Shown here: piece by piece, positions 7,046 through 34,780 of the stretch
Layout: each line of letters begins with the position of its first letter
Position numbering within the stretch: the stretch's first letter is position 1
Assembly (NCBI GenBank): GCA_013204395.1
Contig: JABMNZ010000011.1
Coordinates: 1 to 37,558, forward strand
From: Parcubacteria group bacterium
GTDB taxonomy: Bacteria; Patescibacteriota; Patescibacteriia; UBA9934; GWF2-40-263
Reading direction: 5' to 3'
Length of the DNA stretch: 37,558 nucleotides
The notes under the pieces: generated by a model
Database searches by the model: none
Told to the model about the DNA's origin: nothing
The model's input: only the letters and a program-made list of their open reading frames with translations
Made by a program: the position numbers and the translations under genes

Positions 7046-7504
7046 ATGACTGTGCTCCATGAGCATCCCGATCGACTTCGACGAGACGGCCGACCGCCAG
7101 GATTCATGGTTCAGTACACGATGACGCTCGCCACGAACGACGGTGGTGCCAGCCTCGTGCTGATGGAGACGCCGCGGCAGGATGTTCTCCACATCTGGGG
7201 TAAGGCACTCGATCCGGATCTCGACCAACGGTCGCAGATCGAGGGTCTCCTCCGCAAGGCCATCGCTGACCTGACCAAGACGCTGCTCGACAGCTTCGGA
7301 ATTCAGCTCAAGCGCATCGAGCTCCGACAAGGCCATGTCCCCCTGTGGAACATCACCGGCCATCTGACCAAGGAAGCCGTCGAAGCGCGCGGTGGCAAGT
7401 ACATCCACACGCACCCCGGCGGTTCCATCCATGAGCGCGAAGCTGAGCACGAGATGACGCGCTTCACCGAAGTGGTGATCATGTGCGAGAAGAAGCTCCG
7501 CTAG
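7046..7504 (+). CDS. GC-rich hypothetical protein
   Basis: ATG 7046 preceded by GGAAAGG SD; followed by terminator CCACAACCAACGCCGGTTGTGGATTTTTT. Confidence 0.6.
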   Translation: MTVLHEHPDRLRRDGRPPGFMVQYTMTLATNDGGASLVLMETPRQDVLHIWGKALDPDLDQRSQIEGLLRKAIADLTKTLLDSFGIQLKRIELRQGHVPLWNITGHLTKEAVEARGGKYIHTHPGGSIHEREAEHEMTRFTEVVIMCEKKLR

Positions 7505-29768: not shown

Positions 29769-29860
29769 AGTGGGCAGATTGTATCATGCATCAGATGAAG
29801 GTTTTTGGTAGACCATTACGAGTCAGGTGCGACTCAATAAAAACGACATTTGTCATGTTA

Positions 29861-31671: not shown

Positions 31672-31807
31672 AATTCTAAGATCTAGTGTTTCTTACTCAT
31701 AACCCCTGTATATTACCATATACAGATATCAGAAAATACCCATAATCTAGTAATGGATTTCCAATTAAAATAAAAAAGCTACCGCTTTATCAGCCGTAGC
31801 TTTCTCA

Positions 31808-31837
31808 TGGCAGGGCATAGCGAGTCAGGTTCGAACT
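31808..31837 (-). repeat. tRNA-3'-end-like segment, copy a
   Basis: Minus AGTTCGAACCTGACTCGCTATGCCCTGCCA directly after the stop codon. Confidence 0.7.
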
Positions 31838-32348
31838 ATTTTAATTGTTTCATGATCTCGGCAACCACCATTGATGGCTTCATCTCATCTGTAGAAATCT
31901 TCACTTCATAATCTGGGCTCTCAAATGCAGACAAGCTATCCTTGATCTGCTTTTCTGCCCAACCACCTGGCCCCTGACCTCTTCCATGCAGTCTTTTCTG
32001 AATCGTAGATGGAGAAGCTATCAGACAAAAGTGATAAGTCTTTTGATCGATCGCTCTCAAGCCAGTAATCACTTCGTCAAAATATTCTTTCCGCCAAATC
32101 GTCATGGGCATGATGAGAACTTTGTCGTACTCATCTAATAGTCGCTTTGCCATCTCAACCGTCAGACTACGCCACAGTTTATAATGTTGGAAATCATCAG
32201 GTTGAGGATCTATCTCACCAAGAACATTCCTTAAAAAGAAACCAACCTCTTCTGGATCAAAGATCATCGAATTTGGAATCTGTTTTTCCAACAATTCTGC
32301 TGTCGTAGTTTTGCCAGATCCAAACGATCCATTAATAAAGATAATCAT
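31836..32348 (-). CDS. TmrB-like P-loop NTPase/kinase
   Basis: MIIFINGSFGSGKTTTAELLEK...FDPEEVGFFLRN...LIMPMTIWRKEYFDEVI resembles Bacillus TmrB. Confidence 0.75.
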   Translation of the reverse strand: MIIFINGSFGSGKTTTAELLEKQIPNSMIFDPEEVGFFLRNVLGEIDPQPDDFQHYKLWRSLTVEMAKRLLDEYDKVLIMPMTIWRKEYFDEVITGLRAIDQKTYHFCLIASPSTIQKRLHGRGQGPGGWAEKQIKDSLSAFESPDYEVKISTDEMKPSMVVAEIMKQLK

Positions 32349-32424
32349 ACATTCAGAGTATATCAGAGTTAGATCCATATTTTGCCCCCACGAAAAAAAC
32401 GCTGCAAACACAGCGTCTTTTTCG

Positions 32425-32455
32425 TGGCAGGGGCTCGTAAGCGAGGTTAGAACTC
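32425..32455 (-). repeat. tRNA-3'-end-like segment, copy b
   Basis: Minus GAGTTCTAACCTCGCTTACGAGCCCCTGCCA directly after the stop codon. Confidence 0.7.
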
Positions 32456-32872
32456 TTATCGTTTTTTAAATTGAGACAAGAGCCGACTCAGACCTCCAAA
32501 AAACATTGCGTATACAAGTGCGTTAAATAGTGGAGTTAATTGACCAAGAAGAATCAGTAGTTTCATTGGAATCTCCCCACCAGTAGCAGCTGCGTTAAAT
32601 CCATACATAAACCCAATGTTTGCGTTTAAGTAAGTTCCTGGTGATAAATAGGCAATTCTTCCCCATGGAGAATACATTATTTCCTGAAGAGTAAAGAGAG
32701 AAAGAATACGCGGGACTAAGTACGTAATAATAACTCCAATAATCAATCCAAGAACCAACCAACGATTTTTTTGTATAAATCCCCTAAAACCTTGCTTGGA
32801 TAGTTTGAATAAAATAATCAATAAGCTGATGATCAGTACGGCAAAGTAGATTGTAAGAAGCAGTGTTTCCAT
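32456..32872 (-). CDS. Membrane protein of unknown function
   Basis: Polytopic ORF (METLLLTIYFAVLIISLLIILF...). Confidence 0.6.
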   Translation of the reverse strand: METLLLTIYFAVLIISLLIILFKLSKQGFRGFIQKNRWLVLGLIIGVIITYLVPRILSLFTLQEIMYSPWGRIAYLSPGTYLNANIGFMYGFNAAATGGEIPMKLLILLGQLTPLFNALVYAMFFGGLSRLLSQFKKR

Positions 32873-32907
32873 AAAGTGTTTTAAATAGATGTCATTTTTA
32901 CTAAAAT

Positions 32908-33372
32908 TCAGGATTTTTTCTTCTCTTCCCAAAGGGAAGCGAGCTCGTTATCAATCTCCATTCCATACTTCCCTCTCATATACGGAAGTATTCTTACAAA
33001 GCGTTTTACATTTGTTGCATAGATGAATGTCACTTTTTGTTGAGTGAGTATCTTCGTAATACTTGAGATAGGTATTCGTTGAGATTCAAGTTCTATGTAA
33101 TCTGAGGTGAGAGTGATCACAGGATCACCTTTTTCAAGGCTACGCCTCATATCCAAAATCATCTTCACAGACCCATAACTTGCAAACACCGTAACGAATG
33201 GCATCGCGATGAGCACAAGATCTTGTACTCCAAAAACACCAAACGACCATCTCAACAAAAACCATCCAACCGCAAGGACACCAAGAAGAATGAAGAAAAG
33301 AATCCACAAGACATATTTGAATGTGAATTTATTTACTTCTGCTCTATTAAGATAAACCGTTATGTTTTCCAT
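32908..33372 (-). CDS. Membrane protein with C-terminal PH-like/STM3941-like region
   Basis: Two TM segments followed by ITLTSDYIELESQRIPISSITKI. Confidence 0.5.
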   Translation of the reverse strand: MENITVYLNRAEVNKFTFKYVLWILFFILLGVLAVGWFLLRWSFGVFGVQDLVLIAMPFVTVFASYGSVKMILDMRRSLEKGDPVITLTSDYIELESQRIPISSITKILTQQKVTFIYATNVKRFVRILPYMRGKYGMEIDNELASLWEEKKKS

Positions 33373-33536
33373 GTACTTTTCCGCAGTTAATTACCAAGAG
33401 AAGCATACCAAGAAATACGTCTGTTGTCCTATTCAAAAACCCCACTTGCTCAATAGAGTGTTTGGTAGGTGTTCGTACTGTCATCATTACCCAAAGACGA
33501 TATAACAAAAAACTCCGAGACAATGCTCGGAGGTTT

Positions 33537-33568
33537 TTGGCAGGGGCTCGTGAGCCAGGTTCTAACTT
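33537..33568 (-). repeat. tRNA-3'-end-like segment, copy c
   Basis: Minus AAAGTTAGAACCTGGCTCACGAGCCCCTGCCA, a few nt after the stop codon. Confidence 0.7.
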
Positions 33569-33571
33569 TGC

Positions 33572-34189
33572 CTACACCAATTCATCTAGATACTCATTAA
33601 GCTTAAGCAACGAACCGATCCCATTGCCATCTTTTCCAGAACGATCAATCAGCAAACCATCCATACCCATCGCCTTAGCACCATCTACATCTTTTTCTTG
33701 AGAATCCCCAATCATCAAGCACTCTTCAGGTTGTAGTCCTAATTTCCTTAATTCTGTCTCAAAAATATTTTTGTCTGGTTTTGAAACTCCAACCTCATAT
33801 GACCATGTCACTGCAGCAAAAAATTGTGCTATCCCAAAGTTCTCCCAATCAATTGTCGGAGGAGTATTTGAAATGAGACCAATAATATAACCTTGATCCC
33901 GTAACCAATTCAGTGTTAGCAACACATCATCAAAAAGCACAAACTCTCTATCAACCATCCATGCACGAGCAGCTTCTATCTCATATACTGAAAAAGAAGC
34001 TTCTTCTGCGAGTTCCTTCATCTTATCTCCAACAGACATATCCTCATTATGCCATCGCAAAAATGACCGTACAGCAATCATAAACTTCTCATCACCTAAT
34101 AAGTTCTTTGTAACATCTTTCTTCGCTGCAAGCCCTGGAATATCAAACAGCGTATAACCTAGATCAAAAATAATCGCCTTGTACTTCAT
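33572..34189 (-). CDS. HAD-family hydrolase
   Basis: IIFDLGYTLFD, VGVSKPDKNIFE, CLMIGDSQEKDVDGAKAMGMDGLLI. Confidence 0.92.
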   Translation of the reverse strand: MKYKAIIFDLGYTLFDIPGLAAKKDVTKNLLGDEKFMIAVRSFLRWHNEDMSVGDKMKELAEEASFSVYEIEAARAWMVDREFVLFDDVLLTLNWLRDQGYIIGLISNTPPTIDWENFGIAQFFAAVTWSYEVGVSKPDKNIFETELRKLGLQPEECLMIGDSQEKDVDGAKAMGMDGLLIDRSGKDGNGIGSLLKLNEYLDELV

Positions 34190-34295
34190 ACTCTTCGATT
34201 TATAATAAATGCAACCAACATACTCTGGGAGAATCTTAATATCTATACTACCCGAAGAAACAAAAAATCTCCACGATTTCTCGTGAAGAATTTTT

Positions 34296-34370
34296 TGGCA
34301 GGGGTGCAGGGATTCGAACCCTGAATGAGGGTTTTGGAGACCCTAGTGATAGCCATTTCACTACACCCCT
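34296..34370 (-). tRNA. trnW: tRNA-Trp (anticodon CCA), 3' CCA encoded
   Basis: AGGGGTGTAGTGAAATGGCTATCACTAGGGTCTCCAAAACCCTCATTCAGGGTTCGAATCCCTGCACCCCTGCCA folds as a cloverleaf. Confidence 0.95.
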
Positions 34371-34620
34371 ATTTATTCAGCCCAATCCGTTTCAATAAAA
34401 GCTTGTAAGCAGATCCATACTGCTTCAACATTCGTTCACGTCTCTTTGCTTGGACCTCATCAAGATAAGCTTCGTAGTACACCAGTCGCCATGGACGATA
34501 TCGACGTGTGTAATAAACCTTGCCTTGATGATGTTCAAACAATCGTCTTTTCAAGTCGGAAGAATAACCGATGTAGAAATGAGTATCTGATTCGCTTTTT
34601 AAAAGATAGACATAGTACAT
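34369..34620 (-). CDS. GIY-YIG nuclease-domain protein
   Basis: MYYVYLLKSESDTHFYIGYSSDLKRRLFEHHQGK...YRPWRLVYYE; stop codon TAG overlaps the tRNA-Trp 5' end. Confidence 0.9.
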   Translation of the reverse strand: MYYVYLLKSESDTHFYIGYSSDLKRRLFEHHQGKVYYTRRYRPWRLVYYEAYLDEVQAKRRERMLKQYGSAYKLLLKRIGLNK

Positions 34621-34742: not shown

Positions 34743-34780
34743 TGGAGACCCTAGTGATAGCCATTTCACTACACCCCTAT
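34743..34780 (-). repeat. Duplicate of the tRNA-Trp 5' half (38 bp, identical to 34335-34372)
   Basis: TGGAGACCCTAGTGATAGCCATTTCACTACACCCCTAT present at both positions. Confidence 0.95.

Follow-up and report, generated by a model that had tools for sequence, protein, structure and literature searches.

Repeated attachment-like sites behind a tRNA-Trp gene in Patescibacteria: probable traces of elements inserted by large serine recombinases

How did three neighbouring protein genes acquire a short segment resembling the 3' end of a tRNA? The question is raised by the minus strand of a stretch of 37,558 nucleotides from a Parcubacteria group bacterium, which is referred to as the window. A preliminary description had reported three such segments, each near a stop codon and followed by a terminator, and this proved accurate.

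Three sites and their tRNA-Trp anchor

The segments can be delimited as exact 29-mers on the minus strand and are attR-like, namely site 1 at 33566-33538 (GTTAGAACCTGGCTCACGAG followed by CCCCTGCCA), site 2 at 32453-32425 (GTTCTAACCTCGCTTACGAG followed by CCCCTGCCA), and site 3 at 31836-31808 (GTTCGAACCTGACTCGCTATG followed by CCCTGCCA). The preceding stop codon ends 5 nt ahead of site 1 and 2 nt ahead of site 2 and reaches 1 nt into site 3, and on the 3' side of each site there is a hairpin with a T-run. A probable fourth site, which has decayed (AGTCGCACCTGACTCGTAATGGTCTACCA, 29806..29834, minus strand), belongs to repeat family D2 and is identical to site 3 at 21 of 29 positions as judged by eye.

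Upstream of all three sites, and on the same strand, lies a tRNA-Trp(CCA) gene (34296..34370, minus strand; ARAGORN; Rfam RF00005 with 62.4 bits), which we regard as the target (attB-derived) gene and as the anchor of the array. Directly 3' of it, a hairpin and T-run (34261..34295, minus strand) form the left end of cassette 1 and would serve as terminator of the tRNA. With bounds taken from the sites, three minus-strand cassettes can be defined. Cassette 1 (33538..34295, 758 bp) consists of a gene for a HAD-like hydrolase (34189-33572, Pfam PF00702) and site 1, cassette 2 (32425..33537, 1113 bp) of two ORFs without family matches (33372-32908 and 32932-32456) and site 2, and cassette 3 (31808..32424, 617 bp) of a P-loop kinase-like ORF (32411-31836, AAA_18/AAA_33, with the first ATG near 32349) and site 3. 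Site 2 ends in a sequence that, together with what lies behind it, matches the tRNA-Trp end and the following sequence of another genome (G015) with 91% over 45 nt. Site 3 is followed by a terminator (31768..31807, minus strand) which, by analogy with the genome pair G012/G033 described below, is possibly the displaced native terminator of tRNA-Trp. There is no gene for a large serine recombinase (LSR) at tRNA-Trp in the window genome, where LSR genes are found on other contigs. The only relative from the same genus (G001) has no genes in common with the window genome beside tRNA-Trp.

The resemblance to tRNA 3' ends, as it had been described, holds for only part of the site. From the start of GTTC to the end of CCA, the window sites span 29 nt, while this distance is 24 nt in tRNA-Trp. 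A covariance-model scan for a degenerate T-arm and acceptor, which had been proposed, gave no tRNA match when the window sites were searched against Rfam, even at E=10. The sites can therefore not be explained as tRNA 3' ends that have simply degenerated. Only the last 8-9 nt of a site come from the tRNA, and the T-loop-like part comes from the inserted element. Given their position, with a stop codon on one side and a terminator on the other, and their final CCA, the window sites might instead be tRNA-like signals for RNA processing or CCA addition at mRNA 3' ends, and a mobile tRNA-derived 3' UTR or processing signal had indeed been suggested. However, the sites do not fold better than shuffled versions of themselves and match no tRNA model, and several copies of the site in the wider set have no gene on the same strand ending close by. 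At the DNA level they hold a fixed place relative to tRNA-Trp and are strictly tied to tRNA genes. We give this explanation hardly any credence, and the suggested mobile signal was discarded.

The preliminary description had also called for a genome-wide search for further copies. When the genome of origin was searched with a pattern allowing 3 mismatches, the three window sites and one more copy (C19:56670) were retrieved, and the reversed control gave none. Chance is excluded as the origin of the sites, since the reversed controls were empty in this genome and order-wide, and since in an alignment of 36 copies the edges are sharp and the T-tract is at a fixed distance. In the window genome, two copies of the site are found that have no tRNA-Trp nearby (C19:56670 and C17:20521), and we suggest that these are secondary insertions or rearrangements.

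Distribution of the site and insertion at the tRNA end

The site is present in 23 of 73 genomes of the order (reversed control: 0 of 73), and the public contigs that match the repeat are mainly from Ca. Uhrbacteria and other Patescibacteria. No exact match to the site was found in viral contigs, and a PWM scan of 1.1 Mb of shuffled sequence returned no match with at least 15 bits. The 36 aligned copies have the consensus GTTCTAACSTCSYYCACKAGCCCCTGCCA, weakly preceded by AAAR, and the terminator T-tract lies about 29 nt past the CCA. Wherever tRNA-Trp and a convincing site occur on one contig, the site is downstream of the tRNA and on the same strand; no convincing copy was found upstream of tRNA-Trp or antisense to it. 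The array of genome G055 has at least five sites, and in G059 and G064 the outer junction has decayed. A match in G007, which is on a different contig from the tRNA-Trp of that genome, was rejected as a chance match.

The process that generated the sites could be traced in two pairs of relatives. G033 is empty, and a terminator and a gene come after its tRNA-Trp. In G012, which is from the same genus, 8.1 kb of other DNA separate tRNA-Trp from a site, behind which the same terminator and gene are found, and the homology between the two genomes begins at the 9-nt CCCCTGCCA. The second pair, G066 and G062, is also from one genus and has an identical tRNA-Trp. Here, the genomes differ by a 0.98-kb cassette in G062, with the junction at the CCA, and this cassette carries a GIY-YIG gene and no LSR. 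In this pair the tRNA reads TCCCTGCCA and the site reads CCCCTACCA, and the first C is therefore part of the element arm. At the level of genome comparison, these two pairs show insertion at the CCA of tRNA-Trp. The empty-site evidence comes from these two pairs of relatives, with an empty site in G033 and one cassette fewer in G066. Three features that mark genomic islands were found, namely an intact tRNA-Trp at one end, CCCCTGCCA at each site, and an empty site in a relative. That the segments are remnants of cassette insertion at tRNA genes, as the preliminary description had proposed, is supported by both pairs.

In three genomes, assembly contigs end at or just past the 3' end of tRNA-Trp (G003:C1, G060:C7, and G067:C15), as is expected for an insertion hotspot which varies within the population.

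Large serine recombinases and the shifted T-loop motif

In G014, G012, and G048, an intact LSR gene adjoins tRNA-Trp in convergent orientation and its last codons (..WQGR) are inside the tRNA gene. The order of these elements is LSR, a Toprim primase-like gene, cargo, and a site at the far end, with a type II restriction-modification set as cargo in G048. LSR remnants are found beside tRNA-Trp in G032, G045, and G055. According to Pfam, the LSRs of the relatives have Resolvase, Recombinase, and zinc ribbon (Zn_ribbon_recom) domains, and they match solved LSRs in sequence, including the A118 integrase structure 4kis. The association is not restricted to tRNA-Trp. In 25 of the 30 best LSR loci of the class, the LSR gene runs antisense into a tRNA gene, and Trp, His, Asn, Leu, Ala, Val, Met, Gln, Arg, Ser, and Gly tRNAs are entered in this way. 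Among 24 left ends (P' arms) of LSR elements, nearly all have a T-tract at +30 to +33 past the CCA of the tRNA, which corresponds to a terminator at fixed distance; a clear inverted copy of the motif is not found in these arms, and GAAY occurs at +9 in 7 of the 24. The elements examined showed no phage structural genes.

Two further LSR loci may be mentioned. In G019:C27 (L138, about 7150-7420), the LSR gene runs into an apparent tRNA which is split by a group I-intron-like stretch and was missed by ARAGORN. The LSR gene of G048:C22 ends antisense inside a tRNA-Glu(CTC) gene (L139, 9318-9392).

Rutherford et al. 2013 (PMC3783163) showed for a serine integrase that, compared to attP, the zinc-domain motif of attB is closer to the crossover by 5 bp. 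The spacings of 29 nt and 24 nt are what this rule predicts, provided that GTTCNAAC, which is the T-loop in tRNA genes, acts as the zinc-domain motif, and we infer that this is the case. The same pair of distances, 24 nt in the tRNA and 29 nt in the site, is found at Trp, Leu, His, Ala, and Asn tRNAs. When exact 7-nt copies of tRNA ends were collected downstream of LSR-entered tRNAs, RTTC was found at offset 29 in seven cases, compared to 0.26 cases per other offset, and the opposite strand gave none. Sites with this offset occur at tRNA-Leu of G132 (two), tRNA-His of G297, tRNA-His of G199 (an LSR with an array of five sites), tRNA-Ala of G127, and tRNA-Asn of G118. For over half of the LSR elements at tRNAs other than Trp, no 29-offset site was found within 20 kb. 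A blind pattern, made of the arm and CCA without tRNA-specific letters, retrieved 18 sites in 12 of 381 genomes of the class (reversed control: 0). Nine of these regions were examined, and in six the sites are behind a tRNA whose end they carry; two cases are partial, and in one no tRNA was found.

Taken as a whole, we consider it very probable that the window segments are attR-type attachment sites of elements that were inserted by an LSR at the 3' end of tRNA-Trp. Speaking against it are the absence of an LSR from the tRNA-Trp of the window genome, the lack of a clear inverted motif in the P' arms, the non-Trp elements for which no 29-offset site was retrieved, the decayed outer junctions of G059 and G064, and the two copies without tRNA-Trp nearby. 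The site would be a hybrid, with the element arm GTTCTAACCTCGCTCACGAG joined to the displaced tRNA end CCCCTGCCA by a crossover within the last few bases of the tRNA. As the two pairs of relatives show, the last 8-9 nt (CCCCTGCCA), together with the terminator after the last site of an array, represent the displaced 3' end of tRNA-Trp. The first 20 or more nt, including the T-loop-like part, are the attachment arm of the inserted element itself. At acceptor positions which are still paired in the tRNA, the sites carry other bases, and hence at least the first 20-22 nt are from the element; tRNA-His cases were not relied on for this comparison. The inserting element would bring a new tRNA 3' end with a replacement terminator right behind it, so that the tRNA stays functional, and the old end and terminator would be pushed downstream, behind the site. 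The insertion reaction is presumably carried out by the LSR. Its zinc domain would be the reader of the motif and probably recognizes the T-loop GTTCRANYC of the tRNA as part of attB and, shifted outward by 5 bp, the same motif of the element as part of attP.

Islands inserted by tyrosine integrases are classically recognized by a displaced tRNA 3' end (PMC4383910), and a tycheposon-like island of this type might be responsible, with the LSRs as mere passengers. We consider this very unlikely. No tyrosine recombinase (PF00589) was found on site-bearing contigs in the 15 genomes checked, where such recombinases are encoded elsewhere. In addition, the LSR genes enter tRNA genes in fixed orientation in 25 of 30 cases, and the 5-bp shift is an attP/attB feature of LSRs (PMC3783163).

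Cassettes without recombinase and relation to known systems

The window contains three small cassettes in tandem. Each of them consists of one or two genes and a single site and lacks a recombinase. We infer that such cassettes are mobilised in trans, in analogy to integron cassettes, which are moved by IntI. The array might alternatively have arisen from successive complete LSR elements which lost their recombinases by internal deletion, so that no cassette moves by itself. Consistent with this, LSR remnants lie beside tRNA-Trp in the three genomes named above, many sites are degenerate, and the tRNA of the window has no LSR. However, the window cassettes are compact (0.6-1.1 kb), with stop codons within 5 nt of the sites, and a stop codon within 5 nt is found at 17 of 49 sites, compared to 6% of random positions. 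The insertion of an LSR-free 0.98-kb cassette in G062 relative to G066 also argues against serial deletion, as does the recurrence of the same GIY-YIG cassette, which is found behind tRNA-Trp in several genomes and behind an internal site in G055. Because of this compactness, the G062/G066 pair, and the recurrence after tRNA-Trp and an internal site, cassette movement is favoured over deletion remnants, an origin that we hold to be rather unlikely but far from negligible.

Tandem co-oriented small cassettes with a site that is often at the 3' end of the gene, an anchor site, and mixed cargo are hallmarks of integrons, which use attI and attC sites and the integrase IntI. The arrays described here share the tandem arrangement of small cassettes in one orientation, the anchor site, and mixed cargo such as kinases, hydrolases, and nucleases. 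A classical integron with attC sites and the tyrosine integrase IntI would account for the sites at each gene 3' end in the window, and GTTNNAAC is superficially similar to the core site of attC. However, each site is a single conserved block without a second core site and without a hairpin beyond chance, the sites are anchored at tRNA genes and carry the end of the target tRNA, and the gene at the anchor encodes an LSR, with no PF00589 match on the site contigs of the 15 genomes. We consider a classical integron extremely improbable; the arrays differ from integrons by an unrelated recombinase, a different att site, a tRNA gene as anchor, and a terminator at the start of each cassette.

Other systems are similar in part. 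Islander-type tRNA islands (PMC4383910) also restore their target and carry cargo, with an integrase gene at the tRNA end and the displaced 3' fragment of the tRNA at the opposite one. They use a tyrosine integrase, whereas the elements described here have an LSR at the tRNA end, and the displaced identity is only 6-9 nt in our case, the rest of the site being the element arm. A118-type serine integrases (PMC3783163) share the resolvase, recombinase, and zinc-ribbon domains and a recognition motif that is shifted outward by 5 bp in the element half-site relative to the target half-site. In our case, the motif would be the T-loop common to tRNA genes, and phage structural genes were not seen in the elements examined. 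If the motif equals this common T-loop, one LSR family can target many different tRNAs.

SCCmec and the Enterococcus cassette chromosome likewise consist of tandem serine-recombinase cassettes inserted at a conserved gene's 3' end, but the target is rlmH and not a tRNA, and the cassettes are large. Tycheposons are small integrative elements which accumulate with their cargo at tRNA genes, where remnants of the tRNA separate them, and which use a tyrosine recombinase; they are not known to have a 5-bp shifted arm. A literature search, with a coverage that mostly excludes subscription journals, retrieved no earlier description of the system. Islands with displaced tRNA ends are well known for tyrosine integrases.

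In its general form, the proposal is that Patescibacteria have an integron-like, LSR-based gene-capture system. The T-loop would be read by the LSR, LSR-free cassettes with one site each would be moved in trans and stacked downstream of tRNA genes such as those for Trp, His, and Leu, and built-in terminators would keep the tRNA working. We see about even chances that this holds. Serine integrases had been said not to use tRNA genes, but a class-wide LSR family appears to do so here. The natural sites display the 5-bp shift between attP and attB which was originally derived from a structure, and the T-loop motif would explain how many tRNA genes can be used by one recombinase family. The family would provide a set of serine integrases whose targets can be predicted. 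In their organization, the arrays are similar to integrons that employ an unrelated enzyme, and they point to a gene-capture device in Patescibacteria, which have small genomes and for which little is known about how genes are gained.

Three minor observations concern the surroundings of tRNA-Trp. An 18-bp palindrome (CGTCGNTCGCGANCGACG, with TGGCCTGCCA) followed by a GIY-YIG gene occurs in several genomes (L058, L070, L067, and L056), where it immediately adjoins the CCA of either tRNA-Trp or a site. A two-gene unit that resembles a toxin-antitoxin pair (L061, 7115-7589, and L183 of G011) is the first unit behind tRNA-Trp in G011, and the same unit is found at a later position in G032, where it ends at a site. 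In the window, the first 36-38 nt of tRNA-Trp are exactly duplicated upstream (34743-34780 and 34335-34372) and flank a GIY-YIG nuclease gene (34653-34369). This duplication represents a second kind of insertion at tRNA-Trp, and a 5'-part duplication with the same arrangement occurs in G069 (L205), both breaking after the anticodon CCA.
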